From Rhodobacterales bacterium 32-67-9 (lineage in GTDB: Bacteria; Pseudomonadota; Alphaproteobacteria; Rhodobacterales; Rhodobacteraceae): a DNA stretch of 64,000 nucleotides. Positions 24,764 through 38,893 of the stretch are shown here, in pieces. Below the pieces are notes generated by a model. It worked only from the letters and a program-made list of their open reading frames with translations, was not told the DNA's origin and did no database searches. Location: assembly GCA_002280515.1 (NCBI GenBank), contig NCEA01000008.1, forward strand, positions 43,866-107,865, written 5' to 3'. The translations under genes and the position numbers were made by a program. Positions within the stretch are counted from its first letter, which is position 1. Each line of letters starts with the position of its first letter.

Positions 24764-26200
24764 ATGTACCTCGGGCTCGACCTTGGCACCTCTGGCCTGA
24801 AGGGTGTTCTGATCGACGACGATCAGCGCGTCGTGGCGGAGGCGACGGCGCCGCTGTCGGTGTCGCGGCCCGAGGATGGCTGGTCGGAGCAATTCCCCGC
24901 TGACTGGATCGCGGCGGCGGAGGCGGTGATCGGCGGGTTGCCCGTTGCGGGACGGGCGGCGATCAAGGGTATCGGCCTTTCGGGCCAGATGCACGGCGCA
25001 ACCCTGCTTGACACCTCCGACAACGTGCTGCGTCCGTGCATCCTCTGGAACGACACCCGATCGCATCTGGAGGCGGCAGAGCTTGACGCCAATCCGCGTT
25101 TTCGCGCCATCACCGGCAATATCGTCTTTCCGGGCTTTACCGCGCCAAAGCTCGTCTGGCTAAAGCGCCATGAACCGCAGGTCTTCGGACGCGTCGCGAA
25201 GGTGCTTTTGCCGAAAGACTACCTGCGGCTCTGGCTGACTGGCGAGCATGTGGCGGAAATGTCGGACGCGGCAGGAACAAGTTGGTTCGATACCGGGCGC
25301 CGCGCGTGGTCGGAAGAGCTTCTGGCGGCGACGGGGATGGGGCCCGGCACGATGCCGCGCCTTGTCGAGGGGTCAGAGGTTTCAGGACTGCTCCGGCCCG
25401 AGATCGCCGGACGCTTCGGGATTCCCGCGTCGGCCGTCGTCGCGGGCGGCGCCGGCGACAACGCGGCCGCCGGGATCGGGGTCGGCGTGGTGTCGGCCGG
25501 GCAGGCCTTCGTTTCGCTCGGCACCTCGGGCGTCCTCTTCGCCGCGAATGACGGCTATCGGCCCGATCCGGCGACGGCGGTCCACACCTTCTGCCACGCG
25601 CTGCCCGGCAAATGGCACCAGATGGGCGTGATCCTTGCCGCGACCGACGCGCTCAACTGGTTTGCCGGCATCGCCGGGACAGGGGCGGGCGCGCTGACCG
25701 AGGACCTCGGCCCGCTTCGCGCGCCCGGAAAGACCCGTTTCCTGCCCTATCTCGGGGGCGAGCGCACGCCGCTCAACGATGCCGCGATCCGTGGCGCCTT
25801 CATCGGGCTCGAACACGCGACCGACCGGCAGGCGGCGACCCGTGCCGTCCTTGAAGGCGTCGCCTTTGCGATCCGCGATTGCCGCGATGCTCTGGCTGCG
25901 ACCGGAACGCGGATTGACCGGCTTCTTGCTGTCGGCGGCGGATCGAAATCCGCCTACTGGCTTTCGGCCATCGCGACAGCTCTCGGCACACCGGTCTCGG
26001 TTCCTGTCGCCGGCGATTTCGGCGGCGCCTTCGGGGCCGCGCGCCTCGGCCTGATGGCCGCGACCGGCGCGGGGGCCGAGATTGCCACGCCCCCCGCCAT
26101 CGCACAAACCTTTACACCGGATCCGACGCTGACGGCGGCCTTCGACGATGGCCACGCCCGGTTTCGCGCCGCCCAAACCGCCATCAAGGGACTGACATGA
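24764..26200 (+). CDS. xylB: Xylulokinase
   Basis: 478-residue FGGY-family kinase phosphorylating D-xylulose to xylulose 5-phosphate. N-terminal phosphate motif [15 protein letters not shown] (residues 4-18), substrate-side GLSGQMHG near 76-83, and the C-terminal ATP motif GGGSKSAYW. Length is normal. The stop overlaps the xylA start by ATGA. It remains apparently intact although its usual substrate source, XylA, is broken in this sequence. Confidence 0.94.
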
Positions 26201-27410
26201 CCGACTTCTTCAAAGGCATTCCGCAACTTCGTTACGAAGGGCCGCAGAGCAGCAACGACTTCGCCTTCCGCCACTACAATCCCGACGAGGTCGTGATGGG
26301 CAAGCGGATGCAGGATCACCTCCGCTTTGCCGTTGCCTACTGGCACAGCTTCGCCTGGCCCGGTGGCGACCCCTTCGGCGGCCAGACGTTCGACCGGCCG
26401 TGGTTCGGCGACACGATGGCGCTGGCGAAACTGAAGGCCGATGTGGCGTTCGAGATGTTCGACATCCTCAACGTGCCCTTCTTCTGCTTCCACGATGCCG
26501 ATATCCGGCCCGAGGGCGCGAGTTTCGCGGAAAGCCTGAAGAACCTCGAAGGCATCGTCGACCACCTTGGGGCCAAGATGGAAACGCACCGCACCCGGCT
26601 TCTCTGGGGCACCGCGAACCTCTTCTCGCACCGCCGCTTCATGTCCGGCGCGGCCACCAACCCCGACCCGGACGTCTTTGCCTGGTCGGCGGCGACGGTG
26701 AAGGCCTGCATGGACGCGACACAAAAACTCGGCGGGCAGAACTACGTCCTTTGGGGCGGGCGCGAAGGGTATGAAACGCTGCTCAACACCGATCTCGGGC
26801 GCGAGGCCGAACAGGCCGGCCGCTTCCTTCAGATGGTTGTCGACTACAAGCACAAGATTGGCTTCAAAGGCGGCTGGAGAACGAGGTCAAGCTGAACATC
26901 GAACAGGGCCACGCGATCCTTGCCGGCCATTCCTTCGAACACGAGCTGGCGCTGGCCGCCTCGCTCGGGCTTTTCGGGTCGATCGACATGAACCGGAACG
27001 ACTATCAATCCGGCTGGGATACCGACCAGTTCCCCGACAACGTGCCGGAAATGGCGCGGGCCTATTACGAGGTCATCCGGGCGGGCGGCTTCACCACGGG
27101 CGGCACCAACTTCGATGCCAAGCTACGGCGCCAGTCGCTCGACCCCGAGGATCTGATCCTCGCCCATGCCGGCGCGATGGATATCTGCGCCCGCGCCTTC
27201 AAGGCGGCCGCTGCGCTGATAGAGGACGGAGCGCTGGAACGGGCGCGGGCGGAGCGTTACGCGGGCTGGGACGAGCCGCAAAATGCCGCGATGCTGACAT
27301 CTGGAACGCTCGAGTCGATCTCGGCCCGGGTGCTGGCCTCCGGCCTTGATCCACAGCCGAGGTCGGGTCGTCAGGAACGGCTGGAAAACCTTTGGGGTCG
27401 CTTCGTCTGA
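26197..27410 (+). pseudogene. xylA: Xylose isomerase, disrupted by an internal deletion and frameshift
   Basis: Class II xylose isomerase in two frames. Residues 1-225 (to 26871, HKIGFKG) and a downstream part from 26874 ([16 protein letters not shown]) to the stop at 27410 both match XylA closely. The segment normally joining them, about 31 residues in E. coli XylA starting LLIEPKPQEPTKHQYDYD, is absent. Only 2 nt remain in its place, a net loss of about 91 nt that also shifts frame, so translation stops at 26893-26895 after 232 residues. The lost part carries the metal ligand Glu and catalytic Lys (E232, K234 in E. coli). First-half FHDAD and second-half DMNRND/DTDQF sites remain. No plausible way to make active enzyme is visible; an assembly error is the main alternative. 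Confidence 0.9.
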
Positions 27411-28364: not shown

Positions 28365-29057
28365 TCAGGCGAAACGCTTCCAGATCGCAGTCTCGCCCAG
28401 GCTTTCGATAAGGCGCGCGTGGGCGTCCGCTTCATCGGCGCTCAGCCTCGGAGGCAACGGGGCGGGGCGCAGGCCTGGGCGCCAAGCTTCGGTAGAGGTC
28501 TGACCGGTGCCGCCGCCCGCCACCGACAGTCCGAAATCCGGCTGACGGCCGCCGATCAGCTCGAGATACACTTCCGCCAGAAGCTCGCTGTCGAGAAGTG
28601 CCCCGTGTTTCTCACGCGCCGAATTGTCGATCGCGAAGCGCCGGCAGAGCGCGTCAAGCGAAGCGGGCGAGCCGGGAAACTTGCGCCGAGCAATCGCGAC
28701 GGTATCCAGCGCACGGTCCATCGCGATGATCGGCAGGTTGGCCCAGCCGAGTTCGGCATTGAGGAATTTCATGTCGAAGGCGGCGTTGTGGATCACGAGC
28801 CGCGAGTCCACGCCGATGAAATCGAGAAACGCCATGCCGACCGCCGCAAAGGGCGGCTTGTCGCGGAGGAAATCGTCGCCGAGGCCATGCACCTCGAACG
28901 CTTCCTTCGGCATCGCCCGCTCCGGATTGATATACTGGTGATAAACCCGCCCGGTCGGCATGTGGTTCAGAAGCTCGATTGCGCCGATCTCGACGATGCG
29001 ATGGCCTTCGGCCGGCTCGAATCCGGTGGTCTCGGTATCGAGTACTATTTCACGCAT
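28365..29057 (-). CDS. dnaQ: DNA polymerase III epsilon subunit
   Basis: 230-residue 3-5 proofreading exonuclease. DEDDh motifs visible: ExoI DTETTG (residues 7-12), ExoII HNAAFDMKFL (90-99), ExoIII HGALLDSELLAEVYL with the catalytic His (about 151-165). The C-terminal tail after residue 170 is the region that binds DnaE. Overlaps the coaE end by 8 nt and ends the maf-aroE-coaE-dnaQ operon pointing away from the putative origin. Confidence 0.95.
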   Translation of the reverse strand: MREIVLDTETTGFEPAEGHRIVEIGAIELLNHMPTGRVYHQYINPERAMPKEAFEVHGLGDDFLRDKPPFAAVGMAFLDFIGVDSRLVIHNAAFDMKFLNAELGWANLPIIAMDRALDTVAIARRKFPGSPASLDALCRRFAIDNSAREKHGALLDSELLAEVYLELIGGRQPDFGLSVAGGGTGQTSTEAWRPGLRPAPLPPRLSADEADAHARLIESLGETAIWKRFA

Positions 29058-29652: not shown

Positions 29653-30488
29653 TCCGCCAGAACCGCGTCGCGCACCGCCTGGTCGACTTCGGGCCGGACC
29701 CCGAACCAGCGTTCGAACGCAGGCGCCGCCTGATGGATCAGCATGCCAAGCCCATCAACGGTGACACAACCGATCTCGGCCGCCTCTTCCAGAAGCCTGG
29801 TGCGGAGCGGGGTGTAGACCAGATCGGTCACGACAGCGTTCGGCGACAATGCGTCGAGCGGGACGCGGAAATCCGGCTTTCCGACCATGCCGAGCGAGGA
29901 GGTGTTCACGATGGTCGTCGCGCCCTCCATCATGTTGCCGGCCTGAACCCAGTCATGGACCACGACCTTTGCGCCGAATTCCTGCCGGAGCGCCTCGGCC
30001 CGGGTGCGGGTGCGGTTGGCCAGCCGGATCTCCGGGACGCCGACCTCGATCAGCGAGGCGATGACGGCGCGCGCGGCCCCACCCGCGCCGATCACCGCTG
30101 CCGGCCCGGCAGTTGGGGCCCAGCCCGGCGCGTTCTGGCGCAGGTTGGCGATGAAGCCGTAGCCGTCGGTGTTATCGGCATGGATCCGGCCGTCCTTGCG
30201 GAAAATCAGCGTATTCGCCGCCCCGATCAGCGCCGCGCGGTCGGTCACGACATCGGCGAGCGCGAGCACGGTTTCCTTGTGCGGAATGGTGACGTTGACG
30301 CCGACGAACCCGGCCTTCGGCAAGGCCGCGATCACCTCGCGCAGCTCGGACTGGGCGACATCCATCGGAATGTAATAGCCGGCGATGCCATAGGCTTTCA
30401 GCCAATGACCATGCAACCGCGGCGATTTCGAATGCGCGATCGGGGAACCTATGACACCGGCAAGCGGAATACGGGGATGTTCGGTCAT
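29649..30488 (-). CDS. aroE: Shikimate dehydrogenase
   Basis: 279-residue NADP-dependent enzyme of the shikimate pathway. Substrate motif GSPIAHSKSPRLHG (residues 14-27), catalytic Lys in NVTIPHKETVL and NTD in HADNTDGYGF, dinucleotide motif GAGGAARAV, NADP-binding NRTRTRAE. Overlaps maf and coaE by 4 nt each. Confidence 0.95.
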   Translation of the reverse strand: MTEHPRIPLAGVIGSPIAHSKSPRLHGHWLKAYGIAGYYIPMDVAQSELREVIAALPKAGFVGVNVTIPHKETVLALADVVTDRAALIGAANTLIFRKDGRIHADNTDGYGFIANLRQNAPGWAPTAGPAAVIGAGGAARAVIASLIEVGVPEIRLANRTRTRAEALRQEFGAKVVVHDWVQAGNMMEGATTIVNTSSLGMVGKPDFRVPLDALSPNAVVTDLVYTPLRTRLLEEAAEIGCVTVDGLGMLIHQAAPAFERWFGVRPEVDQAVRDAVLAE

Positions 30489-31093
30489 GAGGCGATGTCG
30501 CCCCGAACTGCGAGCCAGGTCAAGAGTTCGATCAGCGGCAGACCGAGAACAGTGAAGTAATCACCCTCGATGCGGGCAAAAAGTCGCACACCTTCCTCTT
30601 CCAGCTTGTAGCAGCCAACACTGTGACGGATGCTGTCCCAGTTTCGCTCGACATAGTAATTCACATAGCCGTCCGATATGGCGCGCATCGTCAGCCTGGC
30701 CTCGCCGACATGTCTCCAGAGCGGTTGGCCGGCACGACAGATTACCAATGCGGAATGGAGCCGATGGGTCTGTCCTGAGAGCGCGCGAAGCTGGGCGCGG
30801 GCCTCGTCGCGGTCGGCTGGTTTTGAGAAGACGGCGCCACCGCAATCGAGGATCTGATCACATCCGAGAACCAGCGCCTCGGGAAAGCGATCGCTGACGC
30901 GGCGCGCTTTCATCTCGGCCAGGGCGTCGGCAAGATCGCGCGGCGTGGCATCTTCCGCCGCGAGTGAAGCGCGGATCGCATCCTCGTCGATGCGGGCCGG
31001 ACGCACGTCGGGCGATAGCCCTGCGTTCCGCAGCAGCCGGGCGCGGATGTCAGATCCGGAGGCGAGGATCAGTGGAGGGGTCGGGGTGGCCAT
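30485..31093 (-). CDS. maf: Maf family nucleotide pyrophosphatase (YceF-like)
   Basis: 202-residue Maf/HAM1-superfamily hydrolase that removes modified or canonical nucleotides (YceF type acts on m7GTP). Features are ILASGSDIRARLLRNAGL at the N-terminus with S-x-R, the conserved DEDAIR and LGCDQIL catalytic acidic motifs, and GCYKLEEEG. Start MATPTPP is preferred over an upstream ATG because the family begins just before ILASxS. First gene leftward from the candidate origin. Confidence 0.92.
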   Translation of the reverse strand: MATPTPPLILASGSDIRARLLRNAGLSPDVRPARIDEDAIRASLAAEDATPRDLADALAEMKARRVSDRFPEALVLGCDQILDCGGAVFSKPADRDEARAQLRALSGQTHRLHSALVICRAGQPLWRHVGEARLTMRAISDGYVNYYVERNWDSIRHSVGCYKLEEEGVRLFARIEGDYFTVLGLPLIELLTWLAVRGDIAS

Positions 31094-31516
31094 GGACGAC
31101 TCTGTGGGTAAGTTGGCGTGAGGGCAGCGGATCAAACGCGGGATGGAATGCGGATGGCGGGAAGTGGGGACAGATCGGCTGGTCTGTCAAGAACCGGGGA
31201 GATTTCTGCGCATGTGTATGGCGATTTTTGCCCGATGTGGAAAAGTGGGGTTCCCTAGAGGATTTCCCGTGAAGCGTTCACAACCAAGATGCGGATTCGC
31301 ATTTCCTAAGCCTTTGAAAACGTACAAATAAATTGTCTATTTCCAAGACATCCCGGGATTATCCCGTGTTCATCCACAAGCGTCCGGATCTGTGTGGCAC
31401 CCGCCGGAAAAACCGGCAATCCACATCATCCACAGGGTCTAAAACATCAACTTCCCTTTATCTTTATCTTTTCTTTTATAAGAAGACGTCGTGGAACCGT
31501 CGTGAAAGGAGCATCC
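31094..31516. other. Candidate chromosomal replication origin (oriC)
   Basis: 423-bp non-coding gap between maf (-) and hemJ (+). DnaA-box-like 9-mers (consensus TTATCCACA): TTACCCACA (31103-31111, minus), TTTTCCACA (31236-31244, minus), TCATCCACA (31370-31378), CAATCCACA (31417-31425) and TCATCCACA (31426-31434), the last two in tandem, plus TTATCCCGT (31359-31367). An AT-rich pyrimidine tract follows at about 31441-31483 with repeats CTTTATCTTTATCTTTTCTT, suitable as an unwinding element. A second AT-rich patch lies at 31313-31343. Gene direction switches here, and the flanks (maf-aroE-coaE-dnaQ; rho-mnmE-mnmG-rsmG-parAB) are classical alphaproteobacterial origin neighbours. None of the boxes is a perfect consensus. 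Confidence 0.65.
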
Positions 31517-31969
31517 GTGATCGGTGATTTTCTGGCTTCGGTCTATCCTTGGACAAAAGCGCTTCATGTCATATCGGTAATCACATGGATGGCGGGGATC
31601 TTCTATCTGCCGAGGCTGTTCGTCTATCACGTCGAGGTTGTCGGGCAGGGTTCCGAGACCGACAAGCTCTTTCAGGTGATGGAGCGCAAGCTCCTCCGGC
31701 TGATCATGAACCCGGCGATGACGGCGACCTGGACCTTTGGCCTCGCCTTGGTGTTCACGCCGGGGATCGTGGACTGGTCAGAGGTCTGGCCATGGACCAA
31801 GGCGGCGTCGGTTCTGGCAATGACCTGGTTTCACCACTGGCTAGGGTATCGCCGGAAGGATTTCGTGAATGGCACCAACAGTCGCACGGGTCGAACCTAT
31901 CGAATGATGAACGAGGTGCCGACGGTTCTGATGATCGTGATCGTCCTGTCGGTGATCTTGAAATACTGA
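31517..31969 (+). CDS. hemJ: Protoporphyrinogen oxidase HemJ
   Basis: 150-residue inner-membrane haem-pathway enzyme (formerly UPF0093) with four membrane segments. The conserved KALHVISVITWMAGIFYLPRLFVYH (residues about 14-38) includes the essential His, and HHWLGYRRKDF is the second conserved block. GTG start with GAAAGGAGC at a good distance. In Caulobacter-type arrangements hemE sits beside the origin; here hemJ occupies that position and hemE is not in the window. Confidence 0.92.
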   Translation: MIGDFLASVYPWTKALHVISVITWMAGIFYLPRLFVYHVEVVGQGSETDKLFQVMERKLLRLIMNPAMTATWTFGLALVFTPGIVDWSEVWPWTKAASVLAMTWFHHWLGYRRKDFVNGTNSRTGRTYRMMNEVPTVLMIVIVLSVILKY

Positions 31970-34701: not shown

Positions 34702-36576
34702 GTGTTTCACGTGAAACATTTTGACGTCATCGTCGTCGGAGGAGGCCATGCGGGAACCGAGGCGGCGCATGCCGCTGCCCGTCTGGGTGCGCGGACGGTG
34801 CTGGTTACGCTCCGCCGCGATGCCATTGGCGTCATGTCCTGCAATCCAGCGATCGGCGGTTTGGGGAAGGGGCACCTTGTTCGGGAGATTGACGCTCTGG
34901 ATGGGGTCATCGGGCGGATCGCCGACCTAGCCGGGATCCAGTTTCGACTTCTCAACAGGCGGAAAGGGCCGGCGGTCCAGGGCCCGCGGGCGCAGATCGA
35001 CCGCCAGATCTATCGCGATGCGATGCGGGCGGTGACCGAAGCAGAAGAGAACTTGACGATCCTTGAGGGGGAGGCAGTTGATTTCGTCATGGACGGGCGA
35101 CGCGTTGCGGGCGTGCGCCTTGCTGACGGCGCCGAAGCCCGTGCCCTTGCCGTCGTCCTGACCTCCGGCACCTTCTTGCGCGGGGTCATTCATATTGGCG
35201 ATGCGCGCCAGCCCGGCGGCCGCATGGGGGATCGCCCTTCCGTCGCCCTGGCGGAGCGCATCGAGAGTTTCGGCCTCCCGCTTGGGCGGCTGAAAACCGG
35301 CACGCCGCCCCGGCTCGATGGCCGGACGATCAATTGGGATGGGTTGGATCAGCAACCGGGCGATGACGATCCGGCGCTTTTTTCCTTCCTCAATGACCGC
35401 CCCTTCGTTCGGCAGATCAGTTGCGGCATAACCCATACCAATGAACGGACCCACGCGCTGATCCGCGAGAATCTCGCCCGATCGGCGATGTATGGCGGCC
35501 ATATCGACGGCGTCGGGCCGCGCTATTGTCCCTCGATCGAGGACAAGGTGGTGCGGTTCGCGGATAAGTCGTCACATCAGGTTTTTCTCGAGCCTGAAGG
35601 GCTGAACGACCCGACGATCTATCCCAACGGGATTTCCACATCGCTTCCGCAGGATGTGCAGGAGGCCTATGTTCGATCGATTGCCGGACTGGAGAGCGTG
35701 ACGATCACCCAGCCCGGCTATGCCATCGAATACGACTATGTCGATCCACGCGCGCTTCGACCAACGTTGGAGTTGAAGGATGTTCCGGGCCTCTATCTTG
35801 CGGGCCAAATCAACGGAACTACAGGATATGAGGAGGCGGCAGCACAGGGACTCGTCGCCGGCCTCAATGCGGCACAGTCTGCGCGGGGCGGGGCGGATGT
35901 CAAGTTCAGCCGGTCTCAAAGCTATATTGGCGTTATGATCGACGATCTCGTGACGCGCGGCGTTTCTGAGCCGTACCGTATGTTCACCTCGCGGGCCGAG
36001 TTCCGGCTGTCGCTACGTGCCGATAACGCGGACCAGCGTTTGACCGGGCTCGGTATTGACCTCGGATGCGTCGGGCTACAGAGGCGCCGGGTTTTCGATG
36101 CGAAGATGGAGGCGCTGACGGCTGGTCGCGCGGCGCTGGAGTCCCTGTCGCTGACACCGCGCGAGGCCGCGGCGTATGACATCAACATAGGACAGGATGG
36201 CCAGAGGCGGTCAGGCTTCCGGCTTCTCTCGTTTCCGGGGATTGCCTTCGCCGATCTAGAACGGGCCGCGCCGGAACTGTCGGCAATCCCCGACGGGATC
36301 AAAGAGCAGCTCGCCCGAGACGCGACATATGCGACCTATATCGACAGGCAGACCGCGGATGTGCAGGCGATGCGGCGGGAAGAGGCGCACGAGATTCCCG
36401 ATGGCTTTGATTATTCAGGTCTCGCTGGCCTGTCGAACGAACTGAAAGGCAAGCTGGGACAGGCCCGCCCCCGCACGCTTGCGCAAGCTGGACGGATCGA
36501 CGGCATGACCCCTGCCGCGCTCACCTTGATTCTCGCCTCACTCCGTCGCAGCGAAAGGCAGCGGTCGTCGGGATGA
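34702..36576 (+). CDS. mnmG: tRNA uridine-5-carboxymethylaminomethyl modification enzyme MnmG
   Basis: 624-residue FAD enzyme, partner of MnmE. FAD motif [20 protein letters not shown] (residues about 11-30), conserved [24 protein letters not shown], the GTPPR loop and the C-terminal GidA-associated domain. The GTG start reading MFHVKH runs through a parS palindrome. A second GTG three codons on (34711) is better spaced from GTGAGGAG and is a real alternative. Coupled to rsmG by ATGA. Confidence 0.95.
34703..34718. promoter_or_regulatory. parS centromere site 1
   Basis: TGTTTCACGTGAAACA, the canonical 16-bp palindromic ParB-binding site, without mismatch. It overlaps the start of mnmG and encodes its first residues. 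About 3.3 kb from parB, as usual for chromosomal parS near the origin. Confidence 0.95.
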
Positions 36577-37196
36577 AGGAATCGGGAGCTTTCCTGGCGG
36601 GGCGCAATGTTTCACGTGAAACAGAAGATCGCCTGACCCGGTTCGAATTGCTGATCAAAAAGTGGAATCCGGCGATTAACCTCGTTGCCCGCTCCACGCT
36701 CGACACTCTCCGTAGACGTCACTTCCTTGATTCAGCACAGATTTTCGACCTGACCGACACCACTTCCGGCCATTGGGCGGACCTCGGAAGTGGTGGCGGA
36801 TTCCCCGGCATCGTCATCGCGATTCTTGCTGCCAATGAGCGGCCCGGCCTGAAGGTAACGCTGGTTGAGAGCGATCAGAGGAAGGCCGCGTTCCTTTCCA
36901 CCGTAACGCGCGAACTGGGTCTCTCTGTCCAGATCCTTTCCGAACGGATCGAAGCCGTCCCGCCACTCGCCGCCGATATTCTTTCCGCGCGCGCCCTCGC
37001 GCCGCTCACCACGCTCCTCGCTTATGCCGAACGCCATCTCGCCCCTGGCGGCACCGCGATGTTCCCGAAAGGCGGCAATCATCAGGCTGAGATCGATCAG
37101 GCGCTTGAACATTGGACATTCTCCTATCAAAAGGAGCCCAGCAAGTCCGACGCTGCCGGCGTCGTCCTGATCATCGGAGGTATCTCGCGTGTCTGA
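36573..37196 (+). CDS. rsmG: 16S rRNA (guanine-527-N7) methyltransferase RsmG
   Basis: 207-residue SAM-dependent methyltransferase acting on G527 of 16S rRNA. SAM motif [16 protein letters not shown] (residues about 69-84), [12 protein letters not shown] and the LSARALAPL catalytic-side motif. The start overlaps mnmG by 4 nt, and its end overlaps parA by 8 nt. Residues 12-18 (NVSRET) are encoded by a parS palindrome. Confidence 0.95.
36608..36623. promoter_or_regulatory. parS centromere site 2
   Basis: Second perfect copy of TGTTTCACGTGAAACA, inside rsmG codons 12-17, 1905 bp from the first copy and about 570 bp before parA. Both copies sit in 5-prime coding ends, a conserved placement in many bacteria. 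Confidence 0.95.
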
Positions 37197-37992
37197 CCCG
37201 ACCCGTCCGCCGGGCCCGAGAATCATCGCCGTCGCCAACCAGAAGGGCGGCGTCGGCAAGACCACGACCGCGATCAACCTCGCCGCCGCGCTCGCCGAAG
37301 ACGGTTTGAGCGTCCTCCTTGTCGACCTCGACCCGCAGGGAAATGCCTCCACCGGACTTGGGGTGGAGCCGGCGCAGCGCGAGAAGACGACCTACGATCT
37401 CCTGATCGAGGATGCGGCACTTCTCGACGTGATCCGCCCGACCCAGGTCGAAGGTCTCTGGCTTTGCCCGGCGACGACCGACCTCTCCTCTGCGGATATC
37501 GAGCTTGTCGCCAATGAAAAGCGCAGCTTTCTCCTTCATGATGCGCTTCGGCAGCCCGCCATCGACAGCTTTGACTTCGACTACGTCCTGATCGACTGCC
37601 CGCCTTCGCTCAGCCTCTTGACGGTCAACGCGATGGTGGCCGCGCATTCGATCCTCGTCCCGCTCCAGGCCGAATTCTATGCCCTGGAGGGGTTGTCGCA
37701 GCTCATGCTGACCATCCGCGAGGTCCGGCAAACCGCCAATCCCGACCTCCGGATCGAAGGCATCATCCTCACCATGTATGACAGCCGTAACAACCTTTCG
37801 CAGCAGGTCGAGGCGGATGCGCGCGCCAATCTGGGCGACCTCGTCTACAGGACGGTTGTGCCGCGCAACGTGCGGCTCTCCGAGGCGCCGTCCTATGCGG
37901 TGCCGGTTCTTACCTATGATACGATGTCGAAGGGCAGCATCGCCTATCGCGCGCTCGCGCAGGAAATCCTCGCGCAGCACAAACGGAGCTAA
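37189..37992 (+). CDS. parA: Chromosome partitioning ATPase ParA
   Basis: 267-residue Walker-type ATPase that moves ParB-parS complexes after origin duplication. Deviant Walker [15 protein letters not shown] (residues about 18-31), Walker A-prime [13 protein letters not shown], Walker [17 protein letters not shown] start overlapping the rsmG end. Ten nt before parB, one operon. Confidence 0.96.
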
Positions 37993-38002
37993 GGGGGCAT
38001 TC

Positions 38003-38893
38003 ATGGCCGACAGAAAGACCGAACGGCGCGGGCTCGGGCGCGGATTGTCCGCCCTCATGGCAGATGTCCGCCTTGGCGATGAAGATCGGGGCAGCGACGC
38101 GTCTCGCCGCCCCGATATCCGCCTTCCAGTCGAAAAGATCGAACCGAATCCCGATCAGCCTCGCCGCGATTTCGCCCCCGAAGCCCTGGAGGAGCTAGCC
38201 GAATCGATCCGCGCCAAAGGCATCATCCAGCCCCTGATCGTCCGGGAAAATCCCAGAAAATCAGGAAGTTACGAAATCGTGGCGGGCGAACGCCGCTGGC
38301 GCGCCGCGCAGATGGCGCAAATCCACGAAGTGCCCGTCCTGATCCGCGATTTCAACGATACCGAGGTTCTCGAAGTCGCGATCATCGAAAACATCCAGCG
38401 CGCCGATCTCAACGCGATCGAAGAGGCGCTCGGATACCGCCAGCTCATGGACCGCTTCGGGCACACTCAGGAGAAACTCGCCGAAGGACTGTCGAAAAGC
38501 CGCAGCCACATCGCCAACCTCCTCCGCCTCCTGACGCTGCCGGACGAAGTCCAGACCTGGCTTCGCCAAGGCCAGATATCCGCCGGCCATGCCCGCGCCT
38601 TGATCACCACGGCCGACCCGGTGGCGCTCGCCCGCCAGGTGATCGCCAAAGGGCTTTCGGTCCGCGAGACCGAGCGGCTCGCCAAGGCGCCGGCGAAAGC
38701 GGCGACGCCGCGGCCGGACCGCCGGCATGAAAAGGATGCGGACACACGCGTTCTCGAGCAGGATCTCTCGGCCAATCTGAAGATGAAGGTGGTCATCGAC
38801 CACAAGGGCCACGATGGTGGCCATCTCGTCATCACCTACAAGACCCTCGAGCAACTCGACGAGCTCTGCCAGCTTCTCTCGCAAACCAACTGA
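38003..38893 (+). CDS. parB: Chromosome partitioning protein ParB
   Basis: 296-residue parS-binding CTPase. N-terminal ParA-interaction box RRGLGRGLSALMAD, ParB/Srx CTP-binding domain (residues about 38-130) with the Arg patch GERRWRAA, helix-turn-helix KSRSHIANLLRLL, and a C-terminal dimerisation segment. AAGGGGG precedes the ATG. Its targets, two parS sites, are within 3.3 kb upstream. Confidence 0.96.
   Translation: MADRKTERRGLGRGLSALMADVRLGDEDRGSDASRRPDIRLPVEKIEPNPDQPRRDFAPEALEELAESIRAKGIIQPLIVRENPRKSGSYEIVAGERRWRAAQMAQIHEVPVLIRDFNDTEVLEVAIIENIQRADLNAIEEALGYRQLMDRFGHTQEKLAEGLSKSRSHIANLLRLLTLPDEVQTWLRQGQISAGHARALITTADPVALARQVIAKGLSVRETERLAKAPAKAATPRPDRRHEKDADTRVLEQDLSANLKMKVVIDHKGHDGGHLVITYKTLEQLDELCQLLSQTN

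Follow-up and report, generated by a model that had tools for sequence, protein, structure and literature searches.

The maf-hemJ intergenic gap as the probable chromosomal replication origin of Rhodobacterales bacterium 32-67-9

We analysed a 64,000-nucleotide stretch of contig NCEA01000008.1 of Rhodobacterales bacterium 32-67-9 (the window), in which a 423 bp non-coding gap (31094..31516) separates maf on the minus strand (30485..31093, start codon at 31093) from hemJ on the plus strand (31517..31969, GTG start at 31517). The two genes are matched above cut-off by the NCBIfam models TIGR00172 (maf) and TIGR00701 (hemJ), and models above cut-off also back the names dnaQ, coaE, aroE, rho, mnmE and rsmG. 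parA and parB lie at 37189..38893 on the plus strand, with parB starting at 38003 and named from its domain model. The divergent flanks and the outer genes had been proposed in an earlier reading of the window's letters (the sequence-only reading), and their names are now backed by models, the exceptions being ParA, which has matches to the ParA superfamily below their cut-offs only, and mnmG, which was named by eye. A plasmid search with the locus returned three partial matches, to hemJ, to maf and to one unannotated place. Elsewhere in the window, a xylose-isomerase-like frame at 26197-27410 appears split, with an ORF ending at 26895 and an apparent continuation in another frame at 26988-27410. 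Its neighbours are a sugar ABC transporter, a kinase and a ROK-like regulator (all names by eye), and the split is either an assembly error or a broken gene.

The gap contains the five DnaA-box-like 9-mers claimed for it, two of them in tandem; four differ from the perfect box by one mismatch, one by two, and none is perfect. On the minus strand are TTACCCACA (31103..31111, one mismatch, a conserved position at the maf end) and TTTTCCACA (31236..31244, one mismatch). On the plus strand, TCATCCACA (31370..31378, one mismatch) is followed by the tandem pair, which consists of CAATCCACA (31417..31425, two mismatches, ATCC(C/A)C in many relatives) and a second TCATCCACA (31426..31434, one mismatch). 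First-order Markov shuffles of the gap averaged 0.09 boxes at ≤1 mismatch, with four reached in 0/1000, and 1.23 boxes at ≤2 mismatches, with five reached in 5/1000. The seven boxes at ≤1 mismatch in the whole window are not an unusual number (shuffle mean 3.5; 7/100 shuffles reach 7), and four of these seven fall inside the gap. At ≤2 mismatches the five of the gap stand only modestly above other places, among them one near 28771 with four boxes.

The genome assembly (3.72 Mb, 60 contigs, 93.6% complete) has 157 boxes at ≤1 mismatch. At that density, the Poisson probability of finding four in 423 bp is about 4e-9, or about 4e-5 when multiplied by the number of such windows. Among the matches listed, no other place has three boxes at ≤1 mismatch within 423 bp. 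The matches listed are complete for contigs C1-C45 up to C45:24923 and, for C46-C60, cover the three mismatch positions other than 4-9; the variants TNATCCACA (53 places), TTNTCCACA (40) and NTATCCACA (25) are listed in full. Two perfect boxes occur in the genome, each single, on contigs C23 and C51.

For comparison, we scanned public genomes with HemJ and took the best 80 of 343 relatives as loci. Most are labelled as genera of the Rhodobacteraceae, and several are metagenome-assembled genomes labelled only Proteobacteria or Alphaproteobacteria. One locus labelled Flavobacteriia (L028) matches that of a Roseobacter sp. (L029) in gap length and boxes, and one of the two was dropped from the alignment as a duplicate. 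In 80/80 loci maf faces hemJ, with rho after hemJ. aroE lies beyond maf in 80/80, and coaE and dnaQ in 79/80 (L025 is cut by a contig end); on the other side mnmE, mnmG, rsmG and parA were matched in 79, 76, 75 and 75 of the 80 loci. The gap is found in the same place, with a length of 381-466 bp, in 81/81 sequences (the window and the 80 loci). The perfect box TTATCCACA occurs 30 times in 32,768 bp of gaps and twice in 1,084,090 bp of flanks, an enrichment of about 500-fold, and boxes at ≤1 mismatch number 231 in gaps and 170 in flanks (flanks being the same loci outside the gap, with 30-bp margins dropped and the duplicate counted). Boxes at ≤1 mismatch are lacking from two gaps, those of L018 and L050.

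Alignment of the 80 distinct sequences revealed eight conserved box positions, near 31103(-), 31213(-), 31236(-), 31275(+), 31370(+), 31391(-), 31417(+) and 31426(+), of which the window retains five. The other three are decayed: at 31213..31221 (minus strand) relatives have TGTGGA and the window has CCATACACA, with three mismatches by eye; at 31275..31283 (plus strand) relatives are near the perfect box and the window has GCGTTCACA, with four mismatches by eye; and at 31391..31399 (minus strand) the alignment places TGTGGATAA of the relatives over TGTGTGGCA. Position, length and box positions thus recur in the 80 related loci, as do an IHF-like site and a pyrimidine/AT tract.

The IHF-like site, TAAGCCTTTGAAA (31307..31319), sits between the two groups of boxes and has one mismatch to YAANNNNTTGATW, which we take to be the IHF consensus. 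At this place, 13/80 loci have an exact YAANNNNTTGATW and 42/80 a match at ≤1 mismatch. Exact sites occur at 0.43/kb in gaps versus 0.022/kb in flanks, and sites at ≤1 mismatch at 2.19 versus 0.34. The CtrA pattern TTAAN7TTAA of Caulobacter-type origins is absent from the gap of the window, a difference from those origins, and is present in only 3/80 gaps of the family. The two parS sites claimed to the right of the gap were recovered at 34703 and 36608, both exact with respect to what is presumably the parS consensus. The first (34703..34718), at the start of mnmG, is kept at ≤2 mismatches in 76/76 relatives with mnmG, and the second (36608..36623), near the start of rsmG, in 74/75 relatives with rsmG. 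Both lie inside coding starts, those of mnmG (which begins VFHVKH) and rsmG (NVSRET).

The gene beside the gap is hemJ rather than hemE, as the sequence-only reading had remarked, and hemE is on another contig (C6). In a survey of the class, HemJ was found in 141/190 alphaproteobacterial genomes, and we compared 20 loci, mostly high-scoring. At the two of these from the same family, maf faces hemJ. At the other 18, hemE is upstream of hemJ in 18/18 and maf lies beyond hemE in 17; dnaQ, coaE, aroE and maf are all matched in 16 (L182 has no aroE match and L187 none of the four), and rho in 17/18 (not in L186). The stretch before hemE has no box at ≤1 mismatch in 3/18 (L180, L181 and L182). The maf-side gene was typed in two of the 18 only, L185 and L183, and is PF03618 (COG1806/ppsR) in both; L185 also has a ferrochelatase between hemE and hemJ. 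PF03618 (Kinase-PPPase, COG1806) was not found in the 93.6%-complete genome studied here, with a positive control in Caulobacter. The Caulobacter crescentus origin, Cori, is described as lying between hemE and COG1806 (PMC1914354), and in this family the inner genes of that setting seem to have disappeared, leaving the next genes out as the present flanks. On this evidence hemE would be missing beside the gap because the inner flanks of other Alphaproteobacteria (ppsR; hemE-hemH) are gone from the locus.

The locus resembles Cori in its outer neighbourhood, dnaQ-coaE-aroE-maf and hemJ-rho, as seen in other Alphaproteobacteria (the Caulobacter locus itself lay outside the comparison), and differs from it in lacking hemE, hemH and ppsR (COG1806). 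It shares with Cori, as that origin is described, DnaA boxes, an IHF site and an AT-rich stretch, which in Cori is about 40 bp (PMC1914354). Ori-Finder predictions of origins exist for 101 closed genomes of the Rhodobacteraceae (PMC6699656). Those predictions concern the same family and likewise have a low-GC location near parAB and DnaA boxes; they differ in that the accessible part of the report names neither flanking genes nor IHF sites nor triplet tracts (PMC6699656).

Downstream of the tandem boxes, a spacer (31435..31441, G+C-rich in relatives) leads into a tract of C-anchored triplets (31442..31454, here AAA CAT CAA CTT C), which resembles DnaA-trios, and then into a pyrimidine-rich AT tract (31455..31483), the presumed DNA unwinding element as judged from composition. 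The claimed AT tract is real: the 40-bp window from 31441 is 78% AT.

Taken together, the box cluster, the 80 related loci, the coarse skew of relatives and the poor box content of the competing sites make the candidate oriC at 31094..31516 the best reading, and we assign a probability of about 0.94 to the maf-hemJ gap being the chromosomal replication origin. As an origin it is ordinary, and its flanks are a family-wide variant of the Caulobacter setting. The position, composition and conservation of the gap, its enrichment in boxes and the skew change in relatives were observed in the sequences. On the model of known origins, DnaA would bind the scattered boxes of the gap, and an IHF-like protein would bend its centre and aid DnaA assembly. 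The tandem boxes (31417-31434) would load DnaA onto one strand of the period-3 tract (31442-31454), the loading would open the pyrimidine/AT tract (31455-31483) beside hemJ, and the helicase would enter there. The two parS sites lie 3-5 kb away, and ParB bound to them would segregate the new origins. Such an assignment places the origin for this genome and, by conservation, for its relatives, and it would explain why the hemE rule fails in them: the origin kept its place and the genes next to it were lost.

The period-3 tract is somewhat more likely than not an equivalent of the DnaA-trios, as its pattern across the loci suggests. C is present at 31448 in 80/80 sequences and at 31451 in 62/63, and the neighbouring base is mostly A. 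The longest run of C recurring every third base has a mean of 4.24, versus 2.53 in shuffles (the largest of 200 shuffle means was 2.81). One triplet is missing in 17/80 sequences, 16 of which fall short of the commonest length by exactly three bases. Similar triplets, such as CTA, CAA and CCA, come after boxes and before hemE in 16/18 of the other alphaproteobacterial loci by eye, the two without a visible tract being L191 and L192; automatic tract picking was misplaced in L181, L191, L192 and L194. The main alternative, which retains roughly one chance in three, is that the tract is a low-complexity part of the unwinding element with no relation to DnaA-trios. The tract merges into the T/C-rich tract, composition alone yields runs of two to three, and ten other tracts of the 80 vary in length for reasons other than triplets, seven of them by one base. 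The near-invariant C at two positions, the long C runs, the loss of exactly three bases and the recurrence outside the family all speak against such an origin by composition.

The arrangement can be set beside that of the Bacillus subtilis unwinding module BUS, which is described as tandem DnaA boxes followed by DnaA-trios, 3'-GAT-5' (PMC8287927, PMC10721633). The likeness lies in the order of a box pair, a short spacer, a period-3 tract and then the unwinding region. The difference is that most triplets here read 5'-CAW-3' on the box strand (3'-GTW-5' opposite), so that the G is kept and the adjoining A is mostly absent. Among the 283 C-anchored triplets, in a register chosen after the alignment columns had been viewed, 147 are CAT and 63 CAA, and 243 have A adjacent to C on the box strand. 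An adenine next to G (a middle T), as in the preferred 3'-GA-5' dinucleotide, occurs in only 22/283, a rarity that also favours a low-complexity tract. In a neighbouring register, a middle adenine on the strand opposite the boxes recurs in 190/300 triplets, mostly as 3'-TAG-5'. The notion that the middle adenine was lost is weakened by this: adenines recur, only not beside G.

The DnaA-trio rule is given as at least three 3'-NAN-5' in any register within 16 bp of a box (PMC8287927). A box at ≤2 mismatches lies at the tandem site within 16 bp of the tract in 74/80 sequences, the trinucleotide array being our reading of the alignment. Opposite the TTATCCACA strand, 35/74 have an any-register run of at least three 3'-NAN-5', and the window has a run of one. 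On the box strand, a middle-A run of at least three is present in 52/74 and in the window (three). Deviant trios that lack the middle adenine are raised as a possibility in the BUS paper (PMC8287927). Among the papers listed on alphaproteobacterial origins and DnaA-trios we found no description of this triplet variant, which is no proof that it is unpublished.

In the structure described for B. subtilis, the trio guanine contacts Arg202 and Glu228, the next base, adenine, contacts Asn187, and the preferred dinucleotide of DnaA is 3'-GA-5' (PMC10721633). We compared 28 alphaproteobacterial DnaA proteins, 12 of the family (including this genome) and 16 others, with residues read at fixed offsets. 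The Asn187 position has Tyr in 25/28 and Phe in 3/28, the Arg202 position has Lys in 27/28 and Arg in 1/28, and the Glu228 position has Glu in 28/28. E. coli DnaA has Gln, Lys and Glu at 187, 202 and 228, and alignments inspected by eye give Asn in Thermotoga and Gln in Aquifex at position 187. The guanine side of the pocket thus seems to be kept and the adenine-reading amide replaced, alongside a tract with G and rarely an A beside it; this is a correlation, in which the residue change spans the whole class sampled and the sequences are related.

A tentative reading is that the DnaA-trio exists in alphaproteobacterial origins as a guanine-anchored variant, in which Asn187 of DnaA changed to Tyr or Phe and the tract changed accordingly, as a co-change of initiator and origin. 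Somewhat speculatively, the tract would be 3'-GTW-5' in Rhodobacteraceae and mixed 3'-GNN-5' elsewhere, with Lys202 and Glu228 keeping the guanine contact. DnaA could instead read another register or the other strand, where A is beside C. If the triplet reading is true, it would offer a direct way to test the joint change of a bacterial initiator and its unwinding element, a question left open in the BUS paper as far as its accessible part goes (PMC8287927).

Several other accounts of the gap as a whole were weighed. DnaA regulates some promoters in other bacteria, and a divergent intergenic region could be only the promoter and leader of maf and hemJ, with boxes serving DnaA as a transcription factor. 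We consider this very improbable, given the roughly 500-fold enrichment of perfect boxes, the similar length and box order in 81 sequences, the tandem boxes abutting the triplet tract, and parS and parAB nearby. A scan of 31000-31600 found no sigma-70-like promoter, which is weak evidence for this bacterial group, an Rfam scan of 30900-31700 found no family, and a terminator scan of the gap found one terminator-like site versus 0.5 expected.

Less probable still is an origin at dnaA, with the gap as a locus for DnaA titration or regulation. dnaA lies on contig C35 in this genome, and in two complete relatives it is about 88 kb (G001) and 121 kb (G163) from the gap, within a broad minimum of GC skew. 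Since our own genome consists of 60 contigs, whole-chromosome skew was taken from two complete relatives. In CP051232.1 (60 stretches of 12 kb) mean skew is +0.0248 to the right of the locus and -0.0197 to the left, a difference reached in 0/20000 permutations, and of 60 rotations only one, a single 78-kb step away, scores better than the true locus. Its sampled cumulative minimum is at ~1.27 Mb and nearly flat up to the locus at 1.79 Mb. In the complete chromosome of G163 (40 stretches) mean skew is +0.0140 on the right and -0.0406 on the left (0/20000 permutations), and the locus is the best of 40 rotations; the sampled minimum, at ~3.9 Mb, is separated from the locus by some 0.4 Mb of the circle, and skew along the right arm is mixed. 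Both minima are broad and 0.4-0.5 Mb off the locus, and with dnaA so near, sampled skew cannot separate it from the gap. The skew of relatives agrees coarsely with an origin in this region and is too coarse to favour the gap over dnaA.

Box content speaks mostly against dnaA: the 20 kb around it hold no box at ≤1 mismatch in this genome, and the gap is enriched across the relatives as a set. At ≤2 mismatches up to four boxes near dnaA fall in 415 bp, which counts in its favour. Neither dnaA nor hemE, the places at which the sequence-only reading had allowed for a better cluster, has a cluster at ≤1 mismatch in this genome. An origin beside hemE, now on contig C6, as in Caulobacter, where Cori lies next to that gene (PMC1914354), is the least probable of all, with a single box at ≤1 mismatch (TTATCCGCA, about 7.6 kb off) and up to three at ≤2 mismatches in the 20 kb around it.

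Within the window, local GC skew shows no clean switch. It makes a strong local swing between 30000 and 43000, with a high of about +0.13 at 33-35 kb followed by a low of about -0.11 at 38-41 kb.

Elsewhere in this genome, pairs of boxes at ≤1 mismatch are found on C21 (102 bp apart) and C45 (11 bp apart). The C45 pair has no third box at ≤1 mismatch within 1.3 kb around it, and the C21 pair gives the impression of lying inside coding sequence. A homologous second DnaA locus, with pairs ~100-120 bp apart on C21 and in the relatives G007, G009 and G001, was considered and rejected for want of shared similarity: of six stretches with box pairs, none were similar by blastn (E 1e-5) or by ORF (E 1e-15). 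In G001, pairs of perfect boxes also occur away from the gap, for example at C1:90115/90128 and C1:1704124/1704234, so that boxes alone would not choose the origin in that genome. Two stretches outside oriC in two relatives, L271 (2116-2175) and L272 (2156-2177), have in common a motif with two perfect boxes, TTATCCACAGGGGTTATCCACA, in surroundings without detectable similarity, and these double boxes are possibly DnaA titration or regulatory sites.
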